Origin: Ereboglobus sp.
GTDB taxonomy: Bacteria; Verrucomicrobiota; Verrucomicrobiia; Opitutales; Opitutaceae
Length of the DNA: 64,000 nucleotides
Reading direction: 5' to 3'
Assembly: GCA_029974595.1 (NCBI GenBank)
Contig: JARKRC010000069.1
Span: 62,001-126,000 of the forward strand
Shown: positions 13,062 to 39,630 of the stretch, piece after piece
How the letters are laid out: each line of letters starts with the position of its first letter
Position numbering within the stretch: position 1 is the first letter of the stretch
The notes under the pieces: model-generated
What the model was told of the DNA's origin: nothing
Database searches by the model: none
The model's input: only the letters and a program-made list of their open reading frames with translations
Position numbers and translations under genes: made by a program

Positions 13062-13077
13062 TCACCAAAATTGGTGA
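13062..13077. promoter_or_regulatory. Dyad operator candidate (site 1)
   Basis: TCACCAAAATTGGTGA is a 16-bp dyad with 7-bp perfect arms around AA. It lies in the 172-bp gap between two minus-strand genes, 155 bp upstream of the start of the TonB-receptor fusion gene. It belongs to the TCACCA-N4-TGGTGA family found at five other places in the locus. Confidence 0.7.
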
Positions 13078-13079
13078 TC

Positions 13080-16000
13080 TTAAAACTGTTCCCCGAAATG
13101 CGTGCTCCTGCCGAAAGCAACACCGCATTTTATGCCGCGCAGGGCGATGAGCAATGCGAGCGCGAGCCAATGCCACACACCTGTTGCGCCGCCTCCGCCA
13201 TCACTTCCACCCGGTGGCGGCGTGGTCGATCCGCTGCTCGTTGCGGTCACGGTCAACGTGGCCGCGTTGCTGATCACGGAATTCATTTCATTTTTCACCA
13301 CGACGGAGTAACTGCCCGCGTGCATGGTTTGTGCGTTCGCAATCGTATAAGTGTAATCGGTTGCTCCGGTGATGAGGCTCCCGCTTTTTTGCCATTGGTA
13401 AGCCGGGGTTGGCGCGCCGATGGCGAGAACTGTGAAGCTGGCTGTCGCCCCGGCACTGATGCCCTGATTCTCGGGATGTTTCAGAATGCGCGGGCCGTCG
13501 AGCAAAACGCGGATGGTGTGGTTGCCGGTGTCCGCGATGTAGATGTCGCCGGTGGCGGCGTCGATGGCAAAGCCGGTCGGGGTGTTGAGGCGGGCGTTCG
13601 GAGCGAGGCCGTCGGCGGTGCCGGAGGTTTGCGGTGCGCCGATAAGCGTGGTGACTTCGTCGGTTATGACATCGAGATAACGGATGGTGTGATTGCCCGT
13701 GTCGGCGATGTAGAGGTTGCCCGCAATGTCGAAGGCGAGTCCTTCGGGTTTGTTAAGGCGCGCGGTGAGAGCGGGACCGTTGGTGGCGCCGCTTGCGCCG
13801 GGTTGTCCGGCAGCGGTTGTGATCTCGCCGCTGACGGTGTCGACTTTGCGAATAGCGTGGTTGAGTGTGTCAGCCACGTAGAGAAACCCATCGAGACCGA
13901 TGGCGAGCGCAGTGGGGTTGTTGAAGCCAATGGCAAGGGTTGAAGAGGCAGTCGCTCCGGGAGCGAATTTCAGGATGGCGTGACTTGTCGTCGCTGCGAT
14001 GTAGAGATTGCCCGCAGCGTCACGCGCGAGGCCTTCGGGTTGCGGGATGCCGGTGACGAGCGTGGTGAGTTGTCCGGTGGCGGGATTGAGCGAACGGATG
14101 GCATTGTTGCCGGTGTCGGCCACGATGAGCGTGCCGCCTGTGCCAGTGATGAGTGCGCCGGGAAGTGCGAGCGCTCCACCCGTGGTGGCAAGCGTGCTGA
14201 CATTACCATGCGCGTCGATGACGCGGATGGCGTTGTTGTCCGTGTCGGCAATGTAGAGATTTCCATTGGCGTGCGCGATGAGCGCGGCGGGAGATTTGAA
14301 ACGGGCCGCGGTGGTCTGTCCGTTGGCAGTGCCGGAGGATTGCGCGACTCCGGCAAGCGTCACGAGTGCGGTGTGCGTGGGCGCGGCGGCAATGTTGAGC
14401 GTGAGCGTAAAGTTTGTCGTGCCTCTCGAGTTTGTGGCGGAGAGTGTGGCCGTGAATGTGCCGCTCACGGTGGGTTTGCCGGAGATGACGCCGGTGTTTG
14501 TGTTGATCGAAAGCCCCGATGGCAGGCCGGTGGCGGAATACGACGTGGCGGTGTTGTCAACCGTGATGGCGTAGTTGAAGTCGGAGCCGGTCGTTCCTGT
14601 TGCGGTTGCAGGACTGGTGAACGTCGGTTTGTCGGCAGGGCCAGCGGTGGCGACGGTGAGTGCAAGCGCAGTTGCGGAAACGGTGAGTTTGCCTTCGAGG
14701 CCGTTGGAAAGCGGTATCGTCGCAAAGTCCGCCGATGTAAGCGTGGTGCTGCCGAAGGTGGCGAGCGTGCGTGTGGAGCCGGCAGTGAGCGCGGTGGCGT
14801 TTGTGAGCGAAACCGTGCGCGCGCCAGAGCCGGTTTTGGTGAGCGCGCCTGTGATGACGAGACGGTCGCCGCGAACGATGTCGAGTTGCAGCGCGGCGGC
14901 GGAATCCCAAGTGAGTTTGGCGAACTTCGCAAAGGTGCCGCTCACGGCGAGCGTGCCCTCGTTGATCGCCGCCATCCCGCTGAAGATGTTTGTGCCGGAG
15001 AGCGTGAGCGTGCCCGCGCCGGTTTTCGTAAAACCGCCCGTGCCGCTGATCGCGCCGGCAAGCGTGATGTCGGCAGAAGTCTGAAGGACGATGTTGGATG
15101 TGAGTGTGACAGGGTGCGTAGTTGTCCATGCCGCTTTCGCGCCGAGTGTGCCGCTGGCGAGGGTGATTTTGCCGGCGAGTCCGATTGTGCCGTTTTTCAC
15201 GATGCCACCGGAACCGAGGTAGAGTGCGCCGCCATCAACGGTGATGGTTGCGCTGCCGGAAGTGACGGCGCCGTCGAAGCCGAGCGTGATTTTTTCAAAC
15301 GCAGCCTCCCCTCCGCTGAAAGTCGCGGTGGCAACGTTGTTCGCATTGCTGCCATTCGTTTTTGCGAGGACGAGACCGTTTGCGGTCTCGGTCGAGACGA
15401 GTTTGCCGCCGGTGACGCGAAGTTTTCCGCCACGTCCGGCGGATGTTTGGTTTGCGACGATAAACGTGCCGGTGACGAGCACGTTTCCGCCTTCGACGGA
15501 CATTGTGCCATACGAATCAGCCGAGCCGAGTGTGATGTTGGCGAGCGCCGCGTAACCGTCGGTGACGATGACTCCGGTCGCAAAAGTATCGCCGCTGCGA
15601 CGGATGTTTATGTTATCACAGGAAAGTGTGCCGCCGCTGATGAGCAAATAACCGCCGTCGCTGGACGCCGAGCGAATCGAGGCGGCGCGCGCCGAACCTG
15701 ATTGAACAATCAGGCCGCTGTTCGCGCCGAGATCGAAACGTCCGTCGGTGCGGAAGAACCCGCCAGTCACGGAGAACTTGGTGTTGGCGCTGATGCCGGC
15801 GGTGTTGTTGCCGATGTTCAAAATGCCGCCGAGGCCGATGCTCAATTCGCCGGTGTTGACTGTGAGCGCGCCGGTGAGCGCGTTGGAACCGGTGAGCACG
15901 AGGAGGGAACCGCCGGTTTTCACGAGGCCTTGTGTGCCAGCGAGCGGCGCCGCGATGGTGGCTTGCGCGTCGAGGGCGAGGTTGGAGACGTTGATTTCGG

Positions 16001-19000
16001 GCGTGCCGCTCGCGACGGCGAGGCGGAGCGCGGGAGCTGGGCCGCTGGCGAGTGGAATGATGCTCCAGCTGGTGGAGAGTGTCGGGTCGGTGTCGCCAAA
16101 GAGGATTTTCCCGACGGTGCCAGTGACATCAAGGATGACGGTGGTGTCTTGCGCGGGACTGATCGCGCTGAAGTCGGCAGCTTTGCTGAGGCCTTGCGCG
16201 CGGGTGCCTTCGAGCCAGTTGTCGGCGTCGCTCCAGAGGCCGCCGGATATTTCGTTGGCCCATGTGCCGTCGCCGTAGCGGGCGCGGATAATGGTTTCGC
16301 TGGTGATGGAGGTGGCAGCGAGAGCGTTGCCCGCGATGTCGGTGATGCCGGAGACGGCGGTGTTCACATCGAGACGGAGCGTGCCGTCGCCGTCGAGGTT
16401 GCCGACGGTCACGGCGAGGAAGGTCGAGTTGAGCGCGGTGACATCGGTGATGGCACCGGTCACGCCGCCAGTGAATACCGGGGTGAAGGAAGCGGCACTC
16501 GCCCCGGTGATTCCTTCGCTGAAAGAGACATTGAAAACGACTGCCGCGCCGGTGTCCGGCCCGGGGCGTGTGATGGAAGTAACGGAAGGCGCGGTGGTAT
16601 CGATGGTGACAACAAACGCGGGCGCGGAGAGGCTCGTGCCGGTCGCGGCGCGCGTGGCGGCGGCGGTGAACGCGTAGTTGCCGTCGGCGAGGCCGGCGGC
16701 GTGGGGATATTCGAAGCTCCATGCGCCGTTTGGGTCGGCCGTGGTTGTGCCGAGGGTATCACCGGAGCCGATGAAGGAAATGGTAATGGTGTCTCCGGTT
16801 GTCGCGGTGCCATGAAGCATGGGGCGTTTATTGGAGGTGATGCGGTCGGCCGGGGATGCGCCTGTGTCGTTAGCGAGACCGGCAATGATGGGCGCCGCAA
16901 CCGTTGTGTTGAGTGAAACGGTCGAGGAGGACGCGGCCGCAGCGTTGCCGGCTTTGTCGGCAGCGGTCGCGGTGAAAGAACACTCACCCGAGGGGAGCGA
17001 AGCAAGAGGACACGTAATTGTCCATATGCCGTCGGTCCCGACTTCAACGGGACCGAGGCCGCCGAGGGTCGTCACGGACATGGTTAAGAGGCTGTCCGGT
17101 TGCGCGGTGCCGGTGATGGCGCAGGTCTCACCGTCGCCGGTAATGCTCACGATGGCGGGCGCGGAAGGCGGCGCGGTCATGACAGTGACAGTGAAAGGTT
17201 GCGAACGCGCGCCAGTGCGGTTGTCGGCACCGGTCGCGGTGGCAGTGAAGCTCGATTTGCCTTCGGGAAGCGTTATGTCGGCGAAGCTGAGCGTCCAGTT
17301 TCCCGCGGCATCAGCTTGCGTCGTGCGTGTGATGCCGAAGGCGACAAGGGTGAGATTTACGGTGACGTCTGGTTCCGCGGTGCCGTGGAGTGTGATGTTT
17401 GCAGCGCTGGTAATAAAATCGGCCGCCGAGACACCGGTATCGGGCGTGATCGCCGTAATGACAGGGGCGGGTGGACCGAGAAGTTCGTCGAGCGAGGTGA
17501 CGATGTTTGGCGCGGGCGGTTGGGGCATGTTGTGGCCGAGATAGAAACCCGGATGCGGGGTCTGGTTGTAGGCGACGTTTTGCCACGCGATACCGAGGCG
17601 ATACTGGCGGTCGTGCATGAGCGTCGTGATGCGGTGGTCGGTCGGCGCGGTCGGAATGTAGATGCGCAGGGCATTGTTGTCGGATTCAGCGACGATGACT
17701 TCCTCCCGCCAGTCGCCAAAGAGGTCGCCGCTAAGGAGGGGCTTTTCGCTTTTCACGATGCCGTCGGGAGCGAAAAGGGTGTCCATTTTGTTGGTGTTCC
17801 AATTCCACTTGTAAATTACGCCGTTACTGTAGATTTCGCGGAGGAGGTCGCCGTCCCACCAGACGGCGAAGGTGGTCGAGGGTTTTACGGGAACGATTTC
17901 CTGATAGGTGATGGCACTGCGGATGTTCGAGCGCGCGCCCCAGATTTCATAGCCGGGGTTGCGCGGGTCAATGTCAGCGGCCATCGCGCCGTCGGTGTCG
18001 GTGGTGCCTGGAAGGCTGAAGAGGACGTCGCCGGTTTTCGCGTCGCGGAGGGTGTGGCCGATCCAGCCGTTTTTGCTGACTTCCTCGTGGCAGGCCCAAA
18101 CGAGGAGCTGGTCTTTCGCGGGGTTCATTTGCGCAACGTGCAATTTGTCGCCGTGGCGGAGACCGGTCGAGTAGAGGCCCTTGCCGTCGTGATCAATAGT
18201 GCAGGCGCCGTAGATGATTTCGTCGCAGCCGTCGCCGTCCACGTCGGCAACAGAGAGTTGATGGTTGCCCTGGCCGCGATAGGCGGTGTTGCCGGGCGTG
18301 CCGTCGTCGCTGTCGAAAAACCAGCGTTGCGTAAGCTGGCCGTCGCGCCAGTCCCATGCAGCGAGCGTGGTGCGCGTGTAGTAGCCGCGACACATGACGA
18401 GGCTCGGTCGCTGGCCGTCGAGGTAGGCGATGCAGGCAAGGAAGCGATCCACGCGATTGCCGTAGCTGTCGCCCCAGTCGCTGACGTTCCCGCGCGGGGG
18501 CAGGTAGCTGACAGTTTTCATCGCCGCGCCGGTCGCGCCGTTGAAGATGGTGAGGTATTCGGGGCCGGTGAGAATATAGCCGTTGCTGTTGCGCCAGTCG
18601 GCGTTGGCATCGCCGATAATTGTGCCGCGTCCATCCTTGGTGCCGTCGGCGGTTTTGCAGGCAATCTCGGCTTTGCCGTCGCCGTCGAGGTCATACACCA
18701 TGAATTGCGTGTAGTGTTCGCCGGCGCGGATATTTTTTCCGAGGTCAATGCGCCAGAGTTGCGTGCCGTCGAGTTTGTAGGCGTCGAGGTAGACGTTGCC
18801 GGTGTAGCCGGATTGCGAGTTGTCTTTTGCGTTCGAGGGATTCCATTTGACGACGATTTCGTATTCGCCGTCGCCGTCGAGGTCGCCAACGGAGCAATCA
18901 CCGGGTGAGTAGGTGTAAACTTCGCCCGCCGGAGTCGTGCCACTGACAGGGATGCTGAGCGGAATGCGCAGGTAGGGCTGAACGGGGGCACCGGCGGCAA

Positions 19001-19427
19001 TGGTGTTGGCGCCAGTTTCAGTGCGGGAGTCGCTGATGGTGTTGCCCGCAGGCAAGTCGACGCCGTCAGCGGCGATGGCGCGGACAATGTAGGAATTTTT
19101 CTTCGTAAAGTCAGCCGTGGCATCGGTGAAATTCGTGCCTTGCGTGAGGGGGGCGATGTTCAGTTTCACGGGAGCGGCGATATTGCCGTCGGTGATGCGG
19201 TAGAGGTTGAATGCGGTGTCGGACGACTCCGTGCCAATCAGACGCCAACTCACGAAGGCGTCGGTGGTCGTAGTGCGCACGGCGACGACACCACGGTCGA
19301 TGTTTCCCATGAGCGATGGCAGCGATGCGGCGCGACCGCCCGCTCCAATGACAAAGTGAGCGCACAACAAAAACCAGATGACTCCAAGCGTGCGCAGCGG
19401 TTTTTTGGCAAGGGGCGAATGTTTCAT
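13080..19427 (-). CDS. 2115-residue mosaic rhamnogalacturonan lyase (PL11) with Ig, PATR, NHL and C-terminal anchor modules
   Basis: ATG 19425-19427 precedes a signal peptide (residues 1-34). Residues 35 to about 635 form a complete PL11 rhamnogalacturonan lyase, an eight-bladed propeller with calcium-binding 'GDLDGDGEYEIVVKWNPSN', 'DLDGDGKAEIACKTADGT' and 'VADVDGDGCDEIIYG' loops; the family cleaves the GalA-Rha backbone by beta-elimination. Then come three to four bacterial Ig-like domains (about 640-1045), an autotransporter-type repeat region (about 1050-1595, e.g. 'KTGAGTLTLSGTNIFSGM'), one putative-Ig domain, NHL repeats (about 1690-1975), one Ig domain, and a C-terminal 'GGGGATGVWHWLALALLIAL' plus basic tail. 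The lyase itself equals the family's usual length; the remaining 1,480 residues are extra. The design suggests a lyase displayed at the cell surface. A dyad operator lies 48 bp upstream. Confidence 0.88.
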   Translation of the reverse strand: MKHSPLAKKPLRTLGVIWFLLCAHFVIGAGGRAASLPSLMGNIDRGVVAVRTTTTDAFVSWRLIGTESSDTAFNLYRITDGNIAAPVKLNIAPLTQGTNFTDATADFTKKNSYIVRAIAADGVDLPAGNTISDSRTETGANTIAAGAPVQPYLRIPLSIPVSGTTPAGEVYTYSPGDCSVGDLDGDGEYEIVVKWNPSNAKDNSQSGYTGNVYLDAYKLDGTQLWRIDLGKNIRAGEHYTQFMVYDLDGDGKAEIACKTADGTKDGRGTIIGDANADWRNSNGYILTGPEYLTIFNGATGAAMKTVSYLPPRGNVSDWGDSYGNRVDRFLACIAYLDGQRPSLVMCRGYYTRTTLAAWDWRDGQLTQRWFFDSDDGTPGNTAYRGQGNHQLSVADVDGDGCDEIIYGACTIDHDGKGLYSTGLRHGDKLHVAQMNPAKDQLLVWACHEEVSKNGWIGHTLRDAKTGDVLFSLPGTTDTDGAMAADIDPRNPGYEIWGARSNIRSAITYQEIVPVKPSTTFAVWWDGDLLREIYSNGVIYKWNWNTNKMDTLFAPDGIVKSEKPLLSGDLFGDWREEVIVAESDNNALRIYIPTAPTDHRITTLMHDRQYRLGIAWQNVAYNQTPHPGFYLGHNMPQPPAPNIVTSLDELLGPPAPVITAITPDTGVSAADFITSAANITLHGTAEPDVTVNLTLVAFGITRTTQADAAGNWTLSFADITLPEGKSSFTATATGADNRTGARSQPFTVTVMTAPPSAPAIVSITGDGETCAITGTAQPDSLLTMSVTTLGGLGPVEVGTDGIWTITCPLASLPSGECSFTATAADKAGNAAAASSSTVSLNTTVAAPIIAGLANDTGASPADRITSNKRPMLHGTATTGDTITISFIGSGDTLGTTTADPNGAWSFEYPHAAGLADGNYAFTAAATRAATGTSLSAPAFVVTIDTTAPSVTSITRPGPDTGAAVVFNVSFSEGITGASAASFTPVFTGGVTGAITDVTALNSTFLAVTVGNLDGDGTLRLDVNTAVSGITDIAGNALAATSITSETIIRARYGDGTWANEISGGLWSDADNWLEGTRAQGLSKAADFSAISPAQDTTVILDVTGTVGKILFGDTDPTLSTSWSIIPLASGPAPALRLAVASGTPEINVSNLALDAQATIAAPLAGTQGLVKTGGSLLVLTGSNALTGALTVNTGELSIGLGGILNIGNNTAGISANTKFSVTGGFFRTDGRFDLGANSGLIVQSGSARAASIRSASSDGGYLLISGGTLSCDNINIRRSGDTFATGVIVTDGYAALANITLGSADSYGTMSVEGGNVLVTGTFIVANQTSAGRGGKLRVTGGKLVSTETANGLVLAKTNGSNANNVATATFSGGEAAFEKITLGFDGAVTSGSATITVDGGALYLGSGGIVKNGTIGLAGKITLASGTLGAKAAWTTTHPVTLTSNIVLQTSADITLAGAISGTGGFTKTGAGTLTLSGTNIFSGMAAINEGTLAVSGTFAKFAKLTWDSAAALQLDIVRGDRLVITGALTKTGSGARTVSLTNATALTAGSTRTLATFGSTTLTSADFATIPLSNGLEGKLTVSATALALTVATAGPADKPTFTSPATATGTTGSDFNYAITVDNTATSYSATGLPSGLSINTNTGVISGKPTVSGTFTATLSATNSRGTTNFTLTLNIAAAPTHTALVTLAGVAQSSGTANGQTTAARFKSPAALIAHANGNLYIADTDNNAIRVIDAHGNVSTLATTGGALALPGALITGTGGTLIVADTGNNAIRSLNPATGQLTTLVTGIPQPEGLARDAAGNLYIAATTSHAILKFAPGATASSTLAIGFNNPTALAIGLDGFLYVADTLNHAIRKVDTVSGEITTAAGQPGASGATNGPALTARLNKPEGLAFDIAGNLYIADTGNHTIRYLDVITDEVTTLIGAPQTSGTADGLAPNARLNTPTGFAIDAATGDIYIADTGNHTIRVLLDGPRILKHPENQGISAGATASFTVLAIGAPTPAYQWQKSGSLITGATDYTYTIANAQTMHAGSYSVVVKNEMNSVISNAATLTVTATSSGSTTPPPGGSDGGGGATGVWHWLALALLIALRGIKCGVAFGRSTHFGEQF

Positions 19428-19474
19428 AGGGCTGATTTCATGAGACTATAGCAAGTCCAGCAGCCGCCTCCGCC

Positions 19475-19490
19475 TCCCCAATTCTGGTGA
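19475..19490. promoter_or_regulatory. Dyad operator candidate (site 2)
   Basis: TCCCCAATTCTGGTGA matches TCACCA-N4-TGGTGA with one mismatch in the left arm. It is 48 bp upstream of the start of the 2115-residue lyase gene, between that gene and the upstream lyase gene on the same strand. Confidence 0.6.
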
Positions 19491-19510
19491 TGTTTGCGCT
19501 ACGAAAGCCC

Positions 19511-21556
19511 TTATTTGCCCGAAAGTCCGGGAGTCGGGGTAACGATATTCGGCCAAGGCGCGGGTTTCATACCTGCTCCAAGATAGTAGCTCAGATGCGG
19601 CGGCTGGTTGTAGGCGACGTTCTGCCACGCGATGGAGACGCGATACTGGCGGTCATGCATGAGCGTGGGAAAGCGGTATGACGTCGGGAATGGCGTCGTA
19701 TAAATACGGAGGGCGTTTGCCTTGTATTCGCAGTCGCAGCTCTTGTTGCGGTGCGTGCAATCATACTCGGGCATGATGATTTCCTCGCGCCAGTCGCCAA
19801 AGAGGTCGCCACTCAGAACGGGCGTGGACTTGGTGCCGTTGCTTTTCACCACGCCCTTGTCCGCAAGAATGGGCGTAATGCCGGCGCCTGTCCATTTATA
19901 CACGGCTTTGCCGTCCGTGATCTCGCGCTGAAGATCACCATCCCACCAGAGCATGAAACTGAGCATTTTACCGTCCTTTTTTCCTATGACTTTCTTGGTG
20001 GTGGCGTCGGTAACGTCGGCGGCAACACCCCAAACCTGATAGCCGGGATAACGCGCGTCGATATGGCCGGCGGTAGCGCGTCCGGTATCGGATGTGCCCG
20101 TGATGCGCAGAAGGCTTTCGCCTGTGGAGGAATCATATAAATCATGCCCGAAAGGACGCGTTTCCAAGCATGTCCATACCTGCAAGCCGGATCGGCCGGG
20201 TATCATTTTTGCAACGTGTATCGCGTCACCGTGGCCGTTGCCCGTCGAAAAGCGGCCTGTGCCGTCATGATTGATGACGCAGGAGCCAAAAATGATTTCA
20301 TCCTTCCCGTCGCCGTCGACATCCGCCGCGGAGAGGTTATGGAAACCTTGGCCGTTGTAGGCTTCGTTGCCGGGATTGGAGCTATCGAACGTCCAGCGGT
20401 GCCTTAGTTTCCCTTCGCGAAAATCCCATGCGACAAGCACGGTCCGGCCCTTATAATATCCGCGACTCATGACAATGCTTGGGCGCTGGCCGTCGAGATA
20501 GGCGACCGTGGCAAGGAAACGATCCATGCGGTTGCCGTAATCGTCGCCCCATATTTCTTTTTGCCGCGCGACGGCCGGATTGTCGTCGTGGTTGTCGGGG
20601 TCGCGCTGCGGCAGGTATTGCACGGTGTCGATAGCCGCGCCGGTCATGCCATCGAACACGGTAAGGTATTCGGGGCCGGAGAGAATGCGCCCGGTTGTTC
20701 TTCCCTCCCGGATGCGATGATCGGCATTCAGATTGCCGATGACTTTGCCAGCGCCGTCAATAGTGCCGTCAGCGGTCTTGCAAACAACCTCGGCTTTCCC
20801 GTCTCCGTCGAAGTCATACACCATAAATTGCGTGTAATGGGAACCTGAGCGAATATTGATACCGAGATCGATGCGCCAGAGCAACGTGCCATCGAGCTTG
20901 TAAGCGTCGAGGTAGGTGTTGGCCGTGTAGCCAAATTGGGCATTGTCCCGAGCATTTTCCGGTTTCCACTTGAGAATGATTTCGTATTCGCCGTCTCCAT
21001 CAAGATCGCCCACGGAGGCTTCGTTCGGCGAATAACGTGATGCGACACCATCGGGCGTCGTCACATCAGCAGGGCGTTGCAAAGGCAGGCGCAGATACGA
21101 TTGGACGGAGGTGTTGGCACGCAAAGTGAGCGCAGATGTCGATGCTGCAGCGGAAGCCGTTTGCTCGATGCCGGAGACAACCGTGCGGACGCTGTAAACA
21201 TTGTCTTTCGAAAAATCTGCCTTGGTGTCGGTGAAGCAGGTGCTGTCGATGATGGGTTTTGCGTTCAATTTCACAGGCGCGCCGTTGCCGGTGGCGCGGT
21301 AGATGTTGAACGCGACCGCGGGGTCGTCCGTGCCGAGGAGCCGCCAGCTCGCAAAAGCCTTGTTCGATTCAAGACGCGTAACCACCAGACCCCGTCCAAG
21401 ACGCTCCATCTGCGAGGGCGGAAGCGGCGCTTCGACTGCCGCCGCCGGAATGGCTTCCATCCCGAGCAGGCCGAGGACGAAGGCGGACAAAAGCAGTGTC
21501 TTCGAGATTCTTGCAATGATTCCCTGCGCACAGTGAGGATGATTGTTTTGAAGCAT
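19511..21556 (-). CDS. Secreted rhamnogalacturonan lyase, PL11
   Basis: The protein has 681 residues when started at ATG 21554-21556, the ATG nearest to the hydrophobic signal segment (SKTLLLSAFVLGLLGM). An ATG at 21580 is also possible and would add 8 residues. The whole mature protein is a PL11 lyase with the calcium/propeller motifs 'VGDLDGDGEYEIILKWKPEN', 'YDFDGDGKAEVVCKTADG' and 'AADVDGDGKDEIIFGSCVIN', and the C-terminal 'LMHDRQYRVSIAWQNVAYNQ'. It is a close paralogue of the lyase domain of the neighbouring 2115-residue gene but has no accessory modules, so it is probably the soluble or periplasmic form. It is transcribed away from the sensor kinase gene; a perfect dyad in the shared promoter region lies 73 bp upstream. 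Confidence 0.9.
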   Translation of the reverse strand: MLQNNHPHCAQGIIARISKTLLLSAFVLGLLGMEAIPAAAVEAPLPPSQMERLGRGLVVTRLESNKAFASWRLLGTDDPAVAFNIYRATGNGAPVKLNAKPIIDSTCFTDTKADFSKDNVYSVRTVVSGIEQTASAAASTSALTLRANTSVQSYLRLPLQRPADVTTPDGVASRYSPNEASVGDLDGDGEYEIILKWKPENARDNAQFGYTANTYLDAYKLDGTLLWRIDLGINIRSGSHYTQFMVYDFDGDGKAEVVCKTADGTIDGAGKVIGNLNADHRIREGRTTGRILSGPEYLTVFDGMTGAAIDTVQYLPQRDPDNHDDNPAVARQKEIWGDDYGNRMDRFLATVAYLDGQRPSIVMSRGYYKGRTVLVAWDFREGKLRHRWTFDSSNPGNEAYNGQGFHNLSAADVDGDGKDEIIFGSCVINHDGTGRFSTGNGHGDAIHVAKMIPGRSGLQVWTCLETRPFGHDLYDSSTGESLLRITGTSDTGRATAGHIDARYPGYQVWGVAADVTDATTKKVIGKKDGKMLSFMLWWDGDLQREITDGKAVYKWTGAGITPILADKGVVKSNGTKSTPVLSGDLFGDWREEIIMPEYDCTHRNKSCDCEYKANALRIYTTPFPTSYRFPTLMHDRQYRVSIAWQNVAYNQPPHLSYYLGAGMKPAPWPNIVTPTPGLSGK

Positions 21557-21626
21557 GACGGAAGGGCCTTGGATCGACATTTGGCTGAATGTGCCCTTGA
21601 TAATGCCCAAAGCCGCACAGTCACGA

Positions 21627-21646
21627 CATCACCAATTATGGTGATG
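21627..21646. promoter_or_regulatory. Dyad operator candidate (site 3), between divergent lyase and sensor genes
   Basis: CATCACCAATTATGGTGATG is a perfect 8-4-8 dyad and the best copy of the family. It lies 71 bp upstream of the PL11 gene on the minus strand and 49 bp upstream of the sensor kinase ATG on the plus strand. One bound regulator could control both the enzyme and its own sensory system. Confidence 0.75.
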
Positions 21647-21694
21647 ATTTTCTCTGTTGCGCTTAATTACCATGTTGCCGTGATAATAAGTATC

Positions 21695-24600: not shown

Positions 24601-24802
24601 CACCGAGCGCTTCCATATGAGCATAAGCGACAACGGACGCGGTTTTGACACGACCCTTTCAAACCCTGGAAACGGCTTGGAAAACATGCGCGCGCGCATG
24701 TCTGAAATCGACGGGCATATCTCAATTACAAGCCGCCCCGGCGAAGGCGCTAAAATTGAAATCGACGCGCCTTTTCACTGCAAACAGCCTCTTATCAACT
24801 GA
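21695..24802 (+). CDS. Two-component sensor kinase: periplasmic Reg_prop propeller, Y_Y_Y, HisKA_3, HATPase
   Basis: The protein has 1035 residues from ATG 21695; the frame is open farther upstream but would run through the promoter dyad. An N-terminal signal/anchor spans residues 30-50. Residues about 55-670 carry two-component regulator propeller repeats ('GLPHNVVNAVVRDKRGFLWI', 'NRTWVGVDDFLGW', 'RLINQIIEDEHERLWISSRR'). A Y_Y_Y domain follows (about 675-780), then a membrane helix (about 785-808) and a HisKA_3 box 'RIARDLHDELGGSMTK' with phospho-acceptor His841. The HATPase domain has 'KEALNNILKHSQ', 'DNGRGFD' and 'GNGLENMRAR'. In Bacteroidetes such proteins sense oligosaccharides released from the target glycan. 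Here the kinase is not fused to a receiver; the partner response regulator starts 32 bp downstream. Confidence 0.92.
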   Translation: MAPCPSHAPCANPPRYVRNARPPGRLPRQTLVSFALAFLALIAANTLVRASSLPVDDGFVLREWYVEDGLPHNVVNAVVRDKRGFLWIATVGGLARFDGRQFVDYKVPQEYMQNGYTDNIRAMCMENEHTLLLITDADRLVRLHDGKFELHPADAMLRGHILRDLAVDSSGAVWIGTNTSTLLRWDEKSLQTFNAGSGLPARGGRYCVVTDSDNRTWVGVDDFLGWYESGRMHRYEGDHGHAIIIAPARSGGIWISAREHLAKIEGGQLKVVLPRDKWLAPGMGIREIFEAGDGALWIATRRDFVFRLAKGIMERVPLHIERVRSITDDIDSNVWMGTYGGGLVRATLRHHVLLNAESGLPTNVSIAVCEDEHGAIWCANQAGGLVRVKDGRINTVSLDKQQAPYISNVCPDRKGRIWACSPGALLWTTAAGETDPLTGETRWVFRRSEIPMRTVQTMFCAANGDLWLSWDYGRLGVMHDGKMREYGKAEGFPGERVAGIIERKDGTIWFGTEPGRLFRLDKNSDAFVEEKLPDSARAPRLFSLFADSADRLWLGTTNGLLLWRGKQSRLFTRADGLSDRLINQIIEDEHERLWISSRRGIFYVSIKQLLEIANAPEGSAPKATATLYGRDESLDGISGISGGQPMAWKSRDDRIWFATYRGVVGFDTPEVGESRKTVPVYIDGIRTNDSAMETIKPGAPARIAPNSAPIEFHFTALNFSTPQRTRVRRMLEGVDTGWIDVGNERSVTYPRLPPGRYVFRVQADDADSGVMNQSEASVDIIVAAAWWQTAWAALGTIILFAVVVALIVRRVSNRILRRRLRRLQRERALDHERARIARDLHDELGGSMTKIGFVADKLQRRNADPSQTALLGRLVGLSTSLVEDLHKIIWTVNPQNDCWQNLAAYIARYAQRHLADTGVMCTVDGVESIPSRPLTPEVQHHLLALTKEALNNILKHSQADRVRIVLSATTERFHMSISDNGRGFDTTLSNPGNGLENMRARMSEIDGHISITSRPGEGAKIEIDAPFHCKQPLIN

Positions 24803-25692: not shown

Positions 25693-25708
25693 TCACATAT
25701 TCTGGTGA
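25693..25708. promoter_or_regulatory. Weak dyad operator candidate (site 4)
   Basis: TCACATATTCTGGTGA keeps the full right arm TGGTGA and four of six bases in the left arm. It lies 245 bp upstream of the second TonB-dependent receptor gene and 66 bp from a better copy, so it may be the distal half of a tandem arrangement. Confidence 0.4.
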
Positions 25709-25773: not shown

Positions 25774-25789
25774 TCACCAATTTTGGGGA
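25774..25789. promoter_or_regulatory. Dyad operator candidate (site 5)
   Basis: TCACCAATTTTGGGGA has a perfect left arm and one mismatch in the right arm. It is 164 bp upstream of the start of the second TonB-dependent receptor gene, in a gap that otherwise holds no gene. Confidence 0.55.
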
Positions 25790-25952
25790 TGCGAACGCTG
25801 CGTCATCATTATTATGATGGAAGGCGTTAATTTGCTAACCTGCCAACGCAACCTCCTGCCTTCCCCATATCTTTTCTGATTTCCTCACCACGTCATCCGC
25901 CACTTGCGGCATGAAACACATACGACCGAAATCCTAAACCCACCACCAAAAC

Positions 25953-32700: not shown

Positions 32701-32943
32701 GGCGACGAGACGATTCTCTCCCACCTCTGCGCTGTTCCCGGCGTGAAGGCCGGCCATGAGAGCCGTGGAGAAAATGTCGAAATCTCATCACGTCTCAAGG
32801 CGTCATCGCTCAAACGCATCGCGGGCGAGTTCACGCTACTCCCGCTCAATGCGCAATGGAGCGAACCTCTTGCAAGCTGGCTTGGGCAGCCAAGCGAATG
32901 TGCCACAGTGACGCCCGGCTACTTCCACAGCTACGATCAATAA
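29791..32943 (+). CDS. Glycoside hydrolase family 2, beta-galactosidase type
   Basis: The protein has 1050 residues from the first ATG (29791). ATGs at 29842 and 29905 are alternatives, and the last sits directly before the signal peptide (MHACFIAMLAVMCATFAAIS), so the true protein may be 1012 residues. Domain order is that of LacZ-like enzymes: sugar-binding jelly-roll, Ig-like, TIM barrel, Ig-like, and a C-terminal Bgal_small_N domain (from about residue 760, ending 'GYFHSYDQ'). The acid/base is E464 in 'FWSLGNENP' and the nucleophile E535 in 'IVFTEYAHQ'. It is secreted and probably removes beta-galactose side chains of pectin. It lies alone on the plus strand between a terminator and a convergent rhamnosidase gene, and no dyad operator is seen upstream. 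Confidence 0.92.
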   Translation: MFLFRLFPSLSIYGIFFMRLKNRRVEHQQAVYRRIQPAMHACFIAMLAVMCATFAAISIARAQPVDVLPVRISEGAQSLNGTWMFKYIPALDAGGDEGFYQVSFDVRPASRWSTIDVPSHWELQGFAEPQYADDVKEGTGLYRRTFSVPQDWRQQNQRVFLRFDGVLYGFRAWVNGKQVGEWNSSYNQATFDITDALKSDGADNLLAVRVTTRSKGWNFDNMDCWGLSGIYRDVTVFALPQAHLKDYTAVTTLKQDGSAELRIDVLASSTATNITAHLIDPERNPAGTSTIPVSRDGKGSAIFTIAKPKLWTAETPFLYRLELDVNASGTITQRYTDRVGLRQVTIEDGILKLNGTPIKLRGINHHDIWPEGRVATEENMHRDLDLMRAANINFIRTSHYPPHPRFIELCDEMGFYVDDEVPYVHGRKNLTNADYQDTLYMRARATIMRDKNRPSVIFWSLGNENPVTELGLNTGRYAKKLDPSRPITFPTIGSYFAKNWEKYPEFVDLYAPHYPPLATAVKYAETLKRPIVFTEYAHQRGLARGGTSMQDLWDVFYKSPRVAGGAIWMFQDQGIARTAPGGLSAVEDSDLMVWLDEHRYYDTRGFYAMDGIVYSDRTPQEDYWQVRKVYSPVQIKERVLAVKPGAQTLALHVENRHDFRSLTGMKLRWTLHRNRTPIQSGVATLNAMSKQTEIVSIPVNLPATLSSDIYVLSLQCINENNLAIHERTIRLETGASENARWSALASTLPQAQPALELTDTLITVRCASYQLKLDRKNGRLSLHDVKGETIVSDFGPHTGRNPTINDMGKNRERLPSLWQGSLLRNPNDLRTSARKTDDGGVEITVSGNYARPGVTGESVHGTHTLLIASTGAIKVTYDYAPVNATGEMLEAGFALSLPKKHSELRWLGQGPYAGYPGKDRLNEYNCFHLNREDLYFHGNRREVEFVALSRHDGTGVLLNGTSMTIDLEKIGDETILSHLCAVPGVKAGHESRGENVEISSRLKASSLKRIAGEFTLLPLNAQWSEPLASWLGQPSECATVTPGYFHSYDQ

Positions 32944-33137: not shown

Positions 33138-36100
33138 CTATTTCAGTGAATATTTAACCAATAACACCTTGTCCATTATTCCAGAAGTGATCAGTTTGTC
33201 AGTTGATTTGACAACTTCGGGGTAAGAGTATGTGTATCGTTTTTCCTTCGGAAGCACGGCATCTCCAATCATCCGGTTTATCAACGAGTTTACGACTTCT
33301 ATTTCCAATTTGTTTTCTCCATCGCGAATGAAGGCCGTCAAATCAGCCTCCCACGGCGAACACCAGACCGTGGAGACTTCCTGTCCATTCAGCTTGATGC
33401 GCCCGAGAAAGTTCATACGGCTGAAACGTAAAATTACCCGTTCATTGGAAGGCGGTTTTTGCAGGTCGAGTCTCTTCCGGTAGATTGCGGTTCCGGAGTA
33501 ATAGCGAATGCGGGGATCGTCGTTTGTCGCCCAGTCGGTCAGTTCATTAAACACCACGACGCCCGGTCCTCCCCATTTGGGATCGAAATATACATCCCAG
33601 CCGCCGGCAATCGGCATGGCGGTTTCCCGTTTTCCGAATAACCGTGGGAGTAGATCGGCATTTGGCTGATCGGAGGTCACAATGAATCCTGATTCGCGGG
33701 GAGCCAACCGTAACTCCAACAACATGCCGTCATTGTCTGTTCCCGATGCGAGGACGGGCAACGATGTGCGAGTTCCTGTGACCGCATCCCAATATTCGGC
33801 GTAACGGGCTTTCGTGCGCAGACGTATTTTGTCATTGAATATGCGATTGCTGTGGTTGTTCAGATAAAATACGTCGGCATCGAGCAAGCGCCGGTGCGCA
33901 AAATGAACCTTATCCTTGGCTGTGTTGCCGCTTTTCAAGGTAATATCAGGGCGAATCTTTTCGCGCGCGAGCACTTCCGGGAAGGGCATTCCCCAATAGA
34001 GTTTCCCTTTGCCGACCTGTCGGATGCCCGATGTCGTGGTATCCGCACCCCAGAGACGATTCACCAGTTCGTTGTATTCTTCTTTATTGTCTGCATCGGC
34101 AAGCGAATCGGAGCCGGTCGGACGCGGACCGTAAACAGTGACTCCCCCTGCGATCAATTGCGCAATATGGCGCAGAACATGCAGCGGCATGTCATTATTG
34201 CGTTGTATTGCCAGTATGCGATAACTCATGCCGTCGGGCAGCATCAGTCTGCCGTCATCAGCTCGGGTGCGCATGGTGAGCGCCTCAGCGGTGCAAACAT
34301 CGAAATCATATCCTTCGGGGATCTCCGGCAAACGATAGGTCAATAATTTAACCGGCGCGTTTTGTCCCAGATACACACAAATGTCCACAACCGGCATTCC
34401 TTTTCGCATGAGGCTCGCGGAGCGCGCCTGCCAGTCCCAAAATGGACGGCTGTATTCCCATAAGGTATTGTTTCTATTAAAACTGTAATGTTTTCCACCT
34501 GCCAGGCTGCCCGGATATTTATCCAGCCAGGGCTGATATGCGGACGCACATAAAACGAATTCATTCACTCCAAATGCATATGCATAATCTCCGGCGTTTT
34601 TTGCATCGGAAAGGCTGGTGTTCAAACGACTGCCCGTGAAGGCCTCCGCCGAGGCGATGCGTTTCCCATACATGTGGGCAGCGGAGGAGGCTTCCTTCAC
34701 GTCGTATCCTCCATCGGGATGAGATGTCCAAAACTCGCCTTGAGGCTTTTGCACCCGCCCTTTGGCTTGAAGGTTGTCCGCAACCAAGCTCAATCCATTG
34801 CCTGTTGCCTGCGCTGTAAAATTGACGCCGGCAGCGGAACATAGTTGCTGAAGCGTCCCGTAATAGTTGTCTGAAACCATATCGGCCATGGTGCGGCGCA
34901 TATCATAGAGAAACCCGTCGGTCTCCGGTACCGAGCCGACAATGTAACCCATCATGGCAGGCAGATAGCGGCGCATGTTATAGCCTTTGCGGCGGGAAAA
35001 TTCCTCCTCGAAGCCCGGTGTCCAATTCTGCGAGCCCGCTTCGTGGCTGTCCATTGTTACACCTTCGGGCAGGCAGCCAATAGCCGCCAGCGAATCAATG
35101 ATCGGTTTTGCATAATTCTCCCATTGTGCCGTCACCGCCCTCACTGACATTTTATCGCATTCCAATCCCATCAAATTGGGGCGTCCATGCTTCAATGATC
35201 CACCGGTTGGCTCGTGCGCAAAACGCATGATGACCCACTCACCCTCGGGAACATCCCACTCCAAGCGTCCGCTGGCGTCCATTTTCCCGGTGAGGTCGAT
35301 GATTTTATCAGGATTTATAAACTCCCCAGATGCATAATCGGGAGTTGCATTCCCTTCAATGTATTCGGAAAAGAGCGCGGCACGCTCCTCCCATTGATCA
35401 ATACGCGCACGCGATGATAACGTCACATTTCCGAGAGCCAGATGCGGAGTCTGGTCTTTCGGAAGCCACCAGTCATGCAAGTTAAGTCGAAAGTAACGTC
35501 CGGCAGTCGCAGGAAACGAAACTGTTTTCTGTATCCAGACGACGGCCGGCGCCTTGTAAATCGGCTTCAGATCGCATATTTTTCTATAATGGATGCCGTC
35601 ATTGGATACTTCCAACTGTCCGAAATCTGGCAATCTGGTGTATCCCATCCCATAAAAACTGTCGGCAGGCGGCCCGGGATAATTCATGGCCCCCGTCGAT
35701 GCTTTTGTTCCGCGCGGATAAACACTGTATGTGATGGTCCGAGCCGTGAAATCCGATTCAAATTCGATATTAATATAAACGGACTCCCCGGCTTTCTTTT
35801 TTAGAATGCTGACGAGCTTGTTGCCAGGTTGGAAAAACGCATCGGGTGTCAGTTGCGAATCACTGGATGAAAATTGAACCTTCCTGTCACGGCTTGTTTC
35901 CCAGCGGTCTTTGGAAACGGGAAACGCCAATACGGCGACATCCCAGAAGTCAGCGCGCCCCGGCGCAGGAAGCACCCCTGAAAAATGTTTTCCTCCTGTG
36001 ACAACCCTATCGCTGGCTACGAGTCGCTGCATACCCAGCTCCTTCGTAATCCAAGGGCCGCCAGCGACAAACCCGTTGGACACATTGATTTCAAAGGACA

Positions 36101-36440
36101 GGCCGATGCGCTTCGCCTCGGAAGCCGCGAAACGGAGCATCTCCCACCATCCAGAAGAGAGAGCTGGAAGCGCGTTTTTCGCATCGCCATGCACTTGGTC
36201 ATAATAAACAACACCTCCAATTCCGGCGCGTTTATAGGCTTCCAAATCCGCCGTTATTCCCTCGCGTGTGGTTTCGGTCTCGCCATGAAACCACCAGACC
36301 TTCGTGCGCGTTGAATCATCGGGCTTCAAAAATTCGCGCCATGCCTGCTCTTTTGTCGAATGTGCTCCGAACGCCCCAAACGGGCAGAACAGACAAATCA
36401 ACAATGCCGCAAGTTGATATATATGTTTTAAAATTTTCAT
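33138..36440 (-). CDS. Alpha-L-rhamnosidase, GH106
   Basis: The protein has 1100 residues from ATG 36438-36440, which begins a signal peptide (MKILKHIYQLAALLICLFCP). The N-terminal barrel region has the family's hallmark opening 'WWFHGETETTREGITADLEA' and 'GGVVYYDQVHGDAKNALP'. Later come 'TMDSHEAGSQNWTPGFEEEF' and 'ASAEAFTGSRLN', and a C-terminal beta-sandwich with 'LRFSRMNFLGRIKLNGQEVS' and 'LEIEVVNSLINRMIG'. GH106 enzymes remove terminal rhamnose from rhamnogalacturonan oligosaccharides, which fits the neighbouring PL11 lyases. It sits 58 bp downstream of the GH2 gene on the same strand and is probably co-transcribed with it. Confidence 0.9.
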   Translation of the reverse strand: MKILKHIYQLAALLICLFCPFGAFGAHSTKEQAWREFLKPDDSTRTKVWWFHGETETTREGITADLEAYKRAGIGGVVYYDQVHGDAKNALPALSSGWWEMLRFAASEAKRIGLSFEINVSNGFVAGGPWITKELGMQRLVASDRVVTGGKHFSGVLPAPGRADFWDVAVLAFPVSKDRWETSRDRKVQFSSSDSQLTPDAFFQPGNKLVSILKKKAGESVYINIEFESDFTARTITYSVYPRGTKASTGAMNYPGPPADSFYGMGYTRLPDFGQLEVSNDGIHYRKICDLKPIYKAPAVVWIQKTVSFPATAGRYFRLNLHDWWLPKDQTPHLALGNVTLSSRARIDQWEERAALFSEYIEGNATPDYASGEFINPDKIIDLTGKMDASGRLEWDVPEGEWVIMRFAHEPTGGSLKHGRPNLMGLECDKMSVRAVTAQWENYAKPIIDSLAAIGCLPEGVTMDSHEAGSQNWTPGFEEEFSRRKGYNMRRYLPAMMGYIVGSVPETDGFLYDMRRTMADMVSDNYYGTLQQLCSAAGVNFTAQATGNGLSLVADNLQAKGRVQKPQGEFWTSHPDGGYDVKEASSAAHMYGKRIASAEAFTGSRLNTSLSDAKNAGDYAYAFGVNEFVLCASAYQPWLDKYPGSLAGGKHYSFNRNNTLWEYSRPFWDWQARSASLMRKGMPVVDICVYLGQNAPVKLLTYRLPEIPEGYDFDVCTAEALTMRTRADDGRLMLPDGMSYRILAIQRNNDMPLHVLRHIAQLIAGGVTVYGPRPTGSDSLADADNKEEYNELVNRLWGADTTTSGIRQVGKGKLYWGMPFPEVLAREKIRPDITLKSGNTAKDKVHFAHRRLLDADVFYLNNHSNRIFNDKIRLRTKARYAEYWDAVTGTRTSLPVLASGTDNDGMLLELRLAPRESGFIVTSDQPNADLLPRLFGKRETAMPIAGGWDVYFDPKWGGPGVVVFNELTDWATNDDPRIRYYSGTAIYRKRLDLQKPPSNERVILRFSRMNFLGRIKLNGQEVSTVWCSPWEADLTAFIRDGENKLEIEVVNSLINRMIGDAVLPKEKRYTYSYPEVVKSTDKLITSGIMDKVLLVKYSLK

Positions 36441-36498
36441 AATTAATATGGTAAAGCAGTGCCTAGATAAAAATATTCGTGATCTGCCGCGGAGGTTC

Positions 36499-39474
36499 CT
36501 ATTCTGCCACGGGAACAACTTCGAATGCACCGCTAAACGTTTTCGTCCTTGCGGTGTCCAGATACCATTCAGGGCGCTCGGGCGGGAAAAGTTTTGTCCA
36601 TGCGCCGGATTGGTGCGTGAGGACTCGCACCGTGTATCCGGTTGTCGCGTCGCCGCCGAGCCGCGTTGCTTGCGCGCCGCGGATGTGCAGGCTCGCGCCG
36701 TCGGCAACGGTAAAGCGCATCCAATCGGGGCTCCATTTGTTGCCCTTCGAGAGCACATCCGTCGGTGCGAAGCTCCACCAGCCGAAGCGCGTGGCTGCGG
36801 TTTTTCCCGCAACCGAATTAAGCGGACCGTAACCGAGCCAGGTCAGGCGGGTGAGGTTTTTGCCGATGGAAAACTCCAGGCCGGTTTCAGGGATGAAGGG
36901 CGCATCGAGTTTGGGTTCAACTTCAAGCGCGACACGCAGAATGCCCGTGTCGGTTATCGTGTAAGTGTAAGTTGCGATGGCAGCATTGCGGTCATCGGCG
37001 CGGTATTCAACGCTGGCGGTGATGCGGATGGCGTCTGAGCTTTCGCCAATCTCCCATTTGAGGAGCTTGGGTGCGATGTTTTGCATGAATGTGTCCCAGT
37101 CATACTGGCGTTCGCGTTTGTCCAGCGGGTTACGCTCGGCGTAGTCTGCGGGACGCCAGACGACGAGCGTCGCCCTGTCAGTGAGGCGTTTGCCGGCGAT
37201 GCTGATAGAGGCGATTTCACCGATGACAGAATTAAATTCATAACGCGCATCAGCTACCGTGACGGCAACGACACCCGAGAGTTTTTCGACCTTCGGCGCA
37301 GTTGGTTTCGTTTCGGCAGGCGCGACGGGTTGCGGCGTGGATTCGTAGCCGATGCGAACGCTTTTCCGCGTCATCTCGCTGCCATCCGCACGAAGGAAGG
37401 CGATATCGACGTAGTAAACATGCCGCGACAACTCGACGATTTTGGACGTTGGAATTTCGAGATGTGCCGTGACGCGCGGAGGCGCGTTGAGCGTGACTTC
37501 GTTTTTGTCGATGGCCTCGGCATCACGATAGAGCGTCCATACGATATTGACCGTGTTCAGGTTGAGAAAGTCATGATCGTTCCGCACGGGAATCCGAAGC
37601 GCGGGTTGGTTCGCATTAAAGGCGATGCGCTCAACAAGCACCCGCACGGGCGCGTAAACGGCCTTTGTCTCCCAGTAATCGCGCTGAGGTGTGCGGTCGG
37701 CATTGACGATGCCGTCGGCCCCATCGTTGCCGTGCGCGTCAATGATCGCTGCGCCGTTTTCAATGATGTTTTCGGCAACGAGCGACGAATCGTAAGGCGT
37801 GTAGCTTTTTTTATCGCGCATGGGATGGAGAACCTTGCGTCCATTGACAGGACGGCGAATGCCTTGGTCGGCCCAAATCCAAATGCAACCACCCGCCCCG
37901 GAGGGATGCGCGGTGAGCGTATCAAACCGTTGCTCAAGCTCGCCGAAGTCAAACTCGCCAGGCCCAAGAGCGTGCGAGTATTCCGTCGTGATGATGGGGC
38001 GACGCGAAGCCGCGGCGAGTTTGTCGTAATCGGCGGCGCTCCAATAGTGCGGCGCGAGAATGTCGATCTCCGGCGGCAAGTGCGTGTCGGCGCGGAAAGG
38101 CATGAGCACAGGGCGCGTCGGATCCATCCCTTTGAGGGCACGCAGGCCCGCGAGATGAATGGATGTAAACGGATCCTCGTTGCCAAGATCCCAAATTATG
38201 ACCGAAGGACGATTACGGTCACGCGCCACGGTTTCGTAGAGGCGCAGGAACATGCCTTCGGAAAGAAGGGGATTGCTCAGATCGTCACCACCATAACCGA
38301 GCGGAATTTCGTTGAGAACGTAAAAACCCATTTCATCGCAGAGGCGCAGAAAACCCTCAGCAGGCGGATAGTGGGCGCATCGAATCGTATTTATGTTCGC
38401 CGCCTTCATCAGTTCCAAATCCTGCCGCCAGTGCTCATGGCGAGTCGCGCGCCCCACATCGGGATGCTCGTCGTGGCGATTGACCCCGCGCAATTTCACC
38501 GGCTGCCCGTTCACCCGGAGGATTCCCCCAGCCGTGGAAACATCGCGAATGCCGATGCGATCGCTCCACGTGTGGACAAGCTCACCGTGATAATGGAGGT
38601 CGATGTGCAGATCGTAGAGATGGGGAGTCTCCGCAGTCCATGCGGCGGGAGTGTTCACGTGCAGCGTAACCGGCACGTCCCGTCCATTGTGGCCGCTCGT
38701 GATCGTCGCGCCGGAATAAGTCTGGGTCGCGACCGTTTTGCCATCACGCAAAAGCGTGGCGACGAGCTCAAACGGAGGCGATGGCGCAAAGATATAGGCC
38801 TTCTCATTGCGAGAAATCATGGCTCTCACCTCGACATCGGCATTGCGGTATTCCCCATCAAATTTCGAGCGCGCCTCGACGCTCTCGATATACAATGCGC
38901 GTGGCGTATCCTCGATCCAGACACTGCGGTAAATGCCGGGAAGCGACCAGTCGTCATTGGTGTCGAAACGGTGCGACTGCACGCGCTGGCGCACGCGAAC
39001 GGCAAGTTGGTTCTTTTTTCCGGGCTTTATGGTTTTCGAAACATCAATCGCGAACGAGGTGAATCCGCTGTCGTGGCGTCCTATGTTCTTTCCGTTGAGC
39101 CAGACCTCGGCGGAAACCCACACACCGTCGAAATGCAAGAGCACCCTGCGGCCCTGCAAGGACGCCGGGGCATCGAAACTGTGCAGATAAAAACCCTCCG
39201 CTTCAGTCGGACGCCGATAATGAGGCTCCTCAAACTCGTCATTGGTCGTCCAATTCGACGGAACCGTAATCGCTTTGAATGCAGATGAATCAAATGCAGC
39301 ATCGTAAAACTTGCCATACTTGGCATCCGCTGTCGCCGCATCCGGGGCAAGGGCAAAACGCCATTTCCCGTCGAGAGAAAACCGCCCGCTGTTTGCAACG
39401 TCGCGAGCAACAGCTAAGTTAATGCCCAGCAAAAAGGCAAAAATTGCAGCGGCGGTCATAATTCGACATTTCAT
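36499..39474 (-). CDS. Glycoside hydrolase family 2, beta-galactosidase type
   Basis: The protein has 991 residues from ATG 39472-39474; the upstream in-frame extension has no signal and is unlikely. The signal peptide is MKCRIMTAAAIFAFLLGINL. GH2 domains are complete: jelly-roll ('HYRRPTEAEGFYLHSFD', 'LLHFDGVWVSAEVWLNGKNI'), Ig-like, and TIM barrel with acid/base E433 in 'IWDLGNEDP' and nucleophile E498 in 'IITTEYSHA'. A further Ig-like and a Bgal_small_N-type domain follow. It is a paralogue of the GH2 at 29791 but clearly divergent. It leads a two-gene unit with the GH106 rhamnosidase and has a good dyad operator 139 bp upstream, so both enzymes are probably induced with the lyases. Confidence 0.92.
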   Translation of the reverse strand: MKCRIMTAAAIFAFLLGINLAVARDVANSGRFSLDGKWRFALAPDAATADAKYGKFYDAAFDSSAFKAITVPSNWTTNDEFEEPHYRRPTEAEGFYLHSFDAPASLQGRRVLLHFDGVWVSAEVWLNGKNIGRHDSGFTSFAIDVSKTIKPGKKNQLAVRVRQRVQSHRFDTNDDWSLPGIYRSVWIEDTPRALYIESVEARSKFDGEYRNADVEVRAMISRNEKAYIFAPSPPFELVATLLRDGKTVATQTYSGATITSGHNGRDVPVTLHVNTPAAWTAETPHLYDLHIDLHYHGELVHTWSDRIGIRDVSTAGGILRVNGQPVKLRGVNRHDEHPDVGRATRHEHWRQDLELMKAANINTIRCAHYPPAEGFLRLCDEMGFYVLNEIPLGYGGDDLSNPLLSEGMFLRLYETVARDRNRPSVIIWDLGNEDPFTSIHLAGLRALKGMDPTRPVLMPFRADTHLPPEIDILAPHYWSAADYDKLAAASRRPIITTEYSHALGPGEFDFGELEQRFDTLTAHPSGAGGCIWIWADQGIRRPVNGRKVLHPMRDKKSYTPYDSSLVAENIIENGAAIIDAHGNDGADGIVNADRTPQRDYWETKAVYAPVRVLVERIAFNANQPALRIPVRNDHDFLNLNTVNIVWTLYRDAEAIDKNEVTLNAPPRVTAHLEIPTSKIVELSRHVYYVDIAFLRADGSEMTRKSVRIGYESTPQPVAPAETKPTAPKVEKLSGVVAVTVADARYEFNSVIGEIASISIAGKRLTDRATLVVWRPADYAERNPLDKRERQYDWDTFMQNIAPKLLKWEIGESSDAIRITASVEYRADDRNAAIATYTYTITDTGILRVALEVEPKLDAPFIPETGLEFSIGKNLTRLTWLGYGPLNSVAGKTAATRFGWWSFAPTDVLSKGNKWSPDWMRFTVADGASLHIRGAQATRLGGDATTGYTVRVLTHQSGAWTKLFPPERPEWYLDTARTKTFSGAFEVVPVAE

Positions 39475-39610
39475 GATGTTTGATTTCGTTTTGAGGATGA
39501 CAGTGGCGAGGTGTTCTGGGTTTTTGGTGCTCGAAACAGTATCTACCGCATGAAACCGATAAGCTGGCTCGAGTTTTCGCAGCGATAATGCCAAAATTAC
39601 CAAGCATTCA

Positions 39611-39630
39611 CATCACCAAATCTGGTGATG
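39611..39630. promoter_or_regulatory. Dyad operator candidate (site 6)
   Basis: CATCACCAAATCTGGTGATG has perfect 8-bp arms around a 4-base centre. It lies 137 bp upstream of the GH2/GH106 unit on the minus strand and marks the last recognisable element of the polysaccharide locus. No tRNA, integrase or att-like repeat is visible between here and the next region at 39,698. Confidence 0.7.

Follow-up and report, generated by a model that had tools for sequence, protein, structure and literature searches.

The window analyzed here, a stretch of 64,000 nucleotides, covers C28:62001-126000 of an Ereboglobus sp. genome of 4,074,106 bases (4.07 Mb) in 77 contigs (G000). It holds a glycan locus with two TonB receptor genes, two PL11 rhamnogalacturonan lyase genes, GH2 and GH106 genes, and a sensor kinase gene followed by a response regulator gene (Table 1). 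One receptor is part of a single 3070-aa ORF in which passenger-type, Ig and NHL repeats are fused to a TonB-dependent receptor. An autotransporter β-domain ORF (1362-4034) overlaps the end of this fusion, a similar fusion occurs at L067:1-7758, and PL11, PL4 and PL9-like fusions have repeat types in common with it. The second receptor gene is probably co-transcribed, as a predicted operon, with the GH2 gene that follows it (29791-32943). The true start of the kinase probably lies downstream of 21690. The response regulator consists of a receiver domain (PF00072, E 4.7e-23) and then a GerE helix–turn–helix (PF00196, E 1e-19), the arrangement of the NarL/FixJ (LuxR-type) family, and resembles VraR and NarL of known structure (full-length NarL structure, E 5e-28).

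Beside the glycan locus, at 39890-50302, lie an N6-methylase-like ORF (39890-40714), a coupling-protein-like ORF (42232-43728), a TrwC-type relaxase (44262-47411) and an AlbA/Schlafen ORF (49079-50302). These ORFs may belong to an integrated conjugative element bordering the glycan locus.

Table 1. Dyads, -10-like hexamers and genes of the glycan locus (window positions unless a contig is given)
Feature	Position	Strand	Remark
TonB receptor fused to Ig/NHL repeats	3773..12985	-	predicted target of dyad 1
-10-like hexamer TATTCT	13033..13038	-	23 bases past dyad 1; TTTGT (TGn) before hexamer
Dyad 1, perfect	13062..13077	-	faces receptor-fusion gene 3773-12985 (minus)
PL11 rhamnogalacturonan lyase fusion	13080..19427	-	predicted target of dyad 2
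-10-like hexamer TATAGT	19445..19450	-	24 bases past dyad 2
Dyad 2, one mismatch	19475..19490	-	faces PL11 fusion gene 13080-19427 (minus)
PL11 rhamnogalacturonan lyase	19511..21610	-	predicted target of dyad 3
Sensor histidine kinase ORF	21077..24802	+	Pfam: Reg_prop, Y_Y_Y, HisKA_3, HATPase_c
-10-like hexamer CATTAT	21600..21605	-	23 bases past dyad 3
Dyad 3, perfect	21629..21644	-	between lyase 19511-21610 (minus) and kinase; promoter spacing towards lyase only
NarL/LuxR-type response regulator	24835..25473	+	Response_reg + GerE; proposed dyad-binding activator
Dyad 4, weak, two mismatches	25693..25708	-	faces minus-strand small lipoprotein-like ORF; -10 match only 3/6
Dyad 5, one mismatch	25774..25789	+	faces second TonB receptor 25953-29723 (plus)
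-10-like hexamer TATGAT	25813..25818	+	23 bases past dyad 5
TonB receptor (Plug)	25953..29723	+	predicted target of dyad 5
GH2	29791..32943	+	domain search
GH106 α-L-rhamnosidase	33138..36812	-	downstream of GH2 36499-39603; predicted operon
GH2	36499..39603	-	predicted target of dyad 6
-10-like hexamer CATTAT	39585..39590	-	22 bases past dyad 6
Dyad 6, perfect	39613..39628	-	faces GH2 36499-39603 (minus), then GH106
LacI-family regulator	G000:C28:52570-53577		adjoins GH2 gene of the fourth perfect copy

Dyads in the window and its genome

A preliminary description of this DNA listed six copies of the dyad TCACCA-N4-TGGTGA, and each of the six positions does hold the motif: three copies are perfect (13062, 21629, 39613), two have one mismatch (19475, 25774) and one has two (25693). 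Allowing up to three mismatches, we counted 44 matches in the window, compared with a mean of 21.15 and a maximum of 32 in 100 shuffles. In the whole genome, the perfect dyad occurs four times, always on C28 between 56895 and 101628 (44.7 kb), and its reversed control pattern does not occur. The motif is therefore not equally frequent in the rest of the genome. Three of the four copies lie inside the window; the other (C28:56895), 5.1 kb to the left of it, is upstream of a minus-strand GH2 gene. At one mismatch or better, 12 places were found, seven of them on C28; the other five (on C12, C17, C21 and, twice, C25) fall within mechanically called ORFs. One of the seven, at window position 53215, lies in the mobile-element part, probably as a chance match. 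It forms a pair with a second imperfect dyad 80 bases away, at 53295; the pair, too, is probably due to chance.

In the genomes of 38 relatives (142 Mb), 15 perfect copies were found outside the two clusters, the one on C28 and another described below. The number expected per 44.7 kb is ~0.005, a Poisson figure that ignores composition. All 13 of the background copies examined fall inside ORFs called mechanically with a minimum length of 80 aa, a weak criterion because over-extended ORFs from the same caller also engulf locus dyads (21629, 25693, C28:56895 and three Ereboglobus sites).

The dyads were also described as lying in gaps upstream of locus genes, each with a centre that begins with A. 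The first statement holds in general. The weak copy at 25693 does precede a gene, but this is a small minus-strand ORF (about 25500-25643) with a lipoprotein-like signal (ending ...VVSAC); the site would serve either that ORF or, as a distal site, the receptor promoter. The second statement is correct for the + strand of the six window sites and fails in the sister species.

Spacing between dyad and -10 hexamer

The TCACCA loci of the window's genome and of Ereboglobus sp. PH5-10 (G003) together have 16 dyads, 13 of which were oriented to the gene downstream; the distal members of three tandem pairs in PH5-10 (5991, 17761 and 6312) were left out. For the two dyads between divergent genes (21629 and L062:13794), orientation was set towards the lyase. 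A -10-like hexamer was present 22-24 bases past the dyad at 12 of the 13 sites, the weak copy at 25693 being the sole exception. At 10 sites the offset was exactly 23, with at least 4/6 matches to TATAAT, and it was 22 at 39613 and 24 at 19475. Best scores at offsets 20-25 summed to 57; shuffles averaged 37.4 (maximum of 50 in 5000), and the opposite direction gave 35. In an orientation-free scan, offset 23 had 10 matches, and the offsets outside 22-24 averaged 0.32 and never exceeded 2. Offset 20 also scored at five of the 13 sites, because of a TTATTAT-like sequence shifted by three. By inspection, TG stands one base before the hexamer (TGn) at 10 of 13 sites.

If the hexamer start is taken as -12, the dyad would span -51 to -36, with its centre at -43.5. 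Judged by these predicted promoter starts, the dyads would lie about where Class II-like sites (-41 to -45) abut or replace the -35 element.

The dyad at 21629 was originally assigned to the kinase gene as well as to the lyase gene. Its promoter spacing is that of the lyase side; the kinase side has no -10 hexamer at offsets 22-24, and the kinase was dropped as a second target. On that side, GATAAT occurs 36-37 bases past the dyad, both in the window (21681-21686 region) and in L062 after 13794, and is possibly a separate kinase promoter. It was not clear in the other nine of the 11 sites examined.

Dyads at orthologous and paralogous loci

A scan of related genomes had been proposed as a check on the motif. 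Among the 38 relatives, a single dyad cluster was found, in PH5-10, also of the Opitutaceae, with 5/6 perfect copies at C11:73794-96278. The same contig encodes the closest relative of the window's regulator (74% identity; G003:C11:76973-77602). The genes that follow the dyads on it are a cut NHL/Ig-repeat receptor-like ORF region (L062:1-6030), a TonB receptor, a PL11 fusion, one GH88/esterase gene and two GH2 genes. Three tandem dyad pairs, 23-24 bases apart, are found here (L062:17761/17784, L062:5967/5991 and L063:6312/6336), and none at this spacing in the window locus. A DDE_3 transposase ORF (L063:1961-3016) ends 58 bases short of the perfect dyad at L063:3074.

Regulators 56-70% identical to that of the window are encoded at loci with variant dyads, mostly at the same -10 spacing, before TonB receptor, PL11 or PL4 genes. 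On G003:C5 (68%), three TC[CAG]CC[CT]-type dyads each have a -10 hexamer at 23; two precede a TonB receptor and one a PL4 fusion. On G003:C8 and in G001 (61%), the dyad is TCCCTA-N4-TAGGGA, with the hexamer at 23 and 24 and, in G003, a TonB receptor fusion following; here TCCCCA-N4-TGGGGA also precedes PL11 genes 26-28 kb away, with TATTCT at a read offset of 23. Some paralogous loci have one dyad only. This is the case for G002:C418 (68%; -10 at 23, before a TonB receptor), for L083 (70%, a MAG; -10 at 24, target off the contig), and for G173 (56%), whose dyad, found by eye and then checked, has one outer mismatch, TACCAT at 23 and a TonB receptor following. Lone TCCCC dyads in G000:C55, G001:C1:918523 and G003:C10 were discarded, as they lie inside ORFs.

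In the four genomes of the genus, TCCCTA-N4-TAGGGA is perfect three times, only at paralogous loci; G001 and G003 each have one copy of its reversed control. The two G001 loci with this dyad are probably one locus counted twice, because the two ends of G001:C1 (L184/L070 and L071) are 99.65% identical over 14,959 bases, with 51 gaps; this end duplication may be the overlap of a circular sequence that was left untrimmed. Across the 16 dyad-strands of the paralogue set, 1, 5 and 4 matches were counted at offsets 22, 23 and 24, and other offsets averaged 0.32 and did not exceed 2; both G001 contig ends are included, and at a looser palindrome cut-off another offset reached 4. The C11, C5 and C8 loci of G003 differ in their dyads, so that a single genome has three regulators, each at a separate locus with a dyad type of its own.

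The predicted regulator, its rivals and its relatives

The sites themselves, their restriction to the locus, their conservation with an orthologous regulator, their -10 spacing and the variant dyads of the paralogues can all be read from the sequence. They point to the dyads being operators at which the NarL-type regulator acts as an activator of rhamnogalacturonan-I genes, a reading we consider likely. The link between dyad and LuxR-type regulator, put forward earlier as predicted binding, is supported by orthologue co-occurrence, activator-like spacing, a NarL-like 16-bp geometry and paralogue-specific dyads. In the mechanism we propose, the periplasmic Reg_prop/Y_Y_Y kinase would probably sense a rhamnogalacturonan-I fragment and phosphorylate the regulator. 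A regulator dimer would then bind the 16-bp inverted repeat, which in 7-2-7 form reads TCACCAN-NN-NTGGTGA, centred near -43.5, and recruit RNA polymerase to promoters with a TGn-extended -10 hexamer. From the position of the sites we infer activation rather than repression, so that receptors, PL11 lyases and GH2/GH106 enzymes would be switched on. If this is right, cockroach-gut Opitutaceae have a predicted regulator–operator–promoter unit for rhamnogalacturonan-I use, and a single genome contains duplicated response regulators whose operators differ, a natural series in which insulation after duplication is directly testable. The predicted regulon would be new, though of a type already known; the open-licence PMC papers that our searches turned up included none on an operator for a Verrucomicrobiota glycan locus.

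The heptamer consensus of NarL is TACYYMT. The half-site here is TCACCAN, which differs from it, and the seventh base of this arm is not conserved as a repeat. In geometry, the 16-bp dyads, with their outer T, equal the engineered 7-2-7 NarL site in excerpts of PMC4549865. NarL activates E. coli ogt from sites at -44.5 and -77.5, both 16-bp 7-2-7 inverted repeats, and acts at similar positions in napF and yeaR (excerpts of PMC7419079 and PMC4549865). The window's system has in common with E. coli NarL the REC + GerE family and a 16-bp inverted repeat; NarL sites are centred next to or slightly upstream of the -35 region, and the predicted centre of the dyads is similar. It differs in that glycan genes rather than those of nitrate respiration are the predicted targets, that the sensor is a Reg_prop kinase, and that the proposed operators differ between paralogues within one genome.

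The output domain of Bacteroides HTCS is AraC-type, whereas that of the window's regulator is GerE/LuxR-type. An HTCS is a single polypeptide that combines sensor, kinase, receiver and HTH; here, kinase and regulator are separate ORFs. Such systems control pectin PULs of Bacteroides, and excerpts of PMC3243724 describe BT4178 as the HTCS for rhamnogalacturonan I, with a periplasmic Reg_prop/Y_Y_Y sensor. To that extent, the sensor type and the control (here predicted) of an adjacent rhamnogalacturonan locus are shared.

The main rival is that the dyad is the operator of the locus LacI-family regulator, acting as a sugar-responsive repressor. LacI genes are found in both TCACCA loci and near three paralogous loci (L066, L181 and L182), and the homologues of G000 and three paralogous loci are 48-52% identical to the one on Ereboglobus C11. 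LacI sites are often even palindromes of 16-22 nt (excerpts of PMC4052901), and the 16-bp even palindromes upstream of glycan genes resemble those of LacI-family sugar regulons. But the same excerpts give a central CG for 1173 of 1251 LacI-type regulators with even palindromes, and not one of the 16 dyads has it. Moreover, the LacI recognition helix (SHTTVxQ) is alike at G000/G003:C11 and G003:C5 despite their different dyads; at G001 and G003:C8 it is SHTTVSE, one residue different. No LacI match (E <= 1e-3) was obtained in the dyad-bearing L213, L235, L251, L086, L087 and L078 or in the short contigs L069 and L083. The position of the dyad, upstream of the -10 hexamer as for an activator and not over the promoter core, also argues against a repressor. 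We therefore think it unlikely that LacI is the cognate protein.

Use of the dyad by some other DNA-binding protein encoded elsewhere, such as a global carbon regulator, is less likely still. Our regulator screen covered part of the flanking DNA; yet a global site would be genome-wide, whereas the four perfect copies share one locus, and in the sister species the dyad goes with the orthologous locus. We regard it as just as improbable that the dyad arose by chance or is a structural element (a short hairpin, a terminator remnant or a repeat with no regulatory role). Palindromes do occur inside genes too, the loose pattern TCMCC-N6-GGKGA being found at 15-29 places per genus genome compared with 3-8 for its reversed control. 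But the clustering is far above background and the distance to the -10 hexamer is fixed in the gene direction only. A structural or terminator role is also disfavoured because the sites precede genes rather than sitting at 3' ends.

Beyond the genus, operators of NarL-type regulators might follow a more general rule: Verrucomicrobiota Reg_prop kinase/NarL-type pairs would be duplicated, mutually insulated glycan modules, with their own 7-2-7 operators (TCACCA, TCCCYA, TCNCCY, TCCCCC) at the same promoter position, set by a few recognition-helix residues. We find this generalization doubtful; if true, it would make regulons predictable from regulator sequence alone. To the 40 loci fetched from 387 Verrucomicrobiota genomes others were added, and 64 locus groups were scored. 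Dyads with a 4-base spacer recurred in 11 of the 64, no more commonly than with spacers of 2, 3, 5, 6, 7 or 8 (4-17 groups). In the distant loci, offsets 22, 23 and 24 gave 5, 4 and 3 matches, but offset 10 gave 5 and offset 42 gave 4. On first inspection, a TC-N12-GA dyad was not seen in 22 of the 64 groups. For distant relatives the dyad rule is not established: the 4-base spacer does not stand out, and the offsets give a modest signal.

Individual distant loci do carry dyads. Among relatives at 36-50%, the MAGs L086 and L087 have TCCCCC-N4-GGGGGA twice each, and in G164 dyads precede PL11 and GH2 genes. In the recognition helix, we aligned the position that we take to be equivalent to NarL 189, the numbering and contact roles being presumed. 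Serine at this position goes with C at base 3 of the half-site in G003:C8/G001, G002, L083, G173, L086, L087, G164 (two regulators) and L249, and threonine mostly with A in G000/G003:C11, L078 and L216 (A or G). At G003:C5, threonine is paired with a mixed base 3. There are counter-examples: L243 and L236 have threonine with TCCCTA or TCCCC dyads, and G164, where N goes with A at base 6, departs from a companion rule. A correspondence between residues of the recognition helix and bases of the half-site is suggestive only, the pairings having been chosen after the data were seen. At L243:11596, L243:18622 and L078:7054, in two genomes, the dyads are followed by an identical nine-base sequence, catgacggg, in one case in the opposite orientation.
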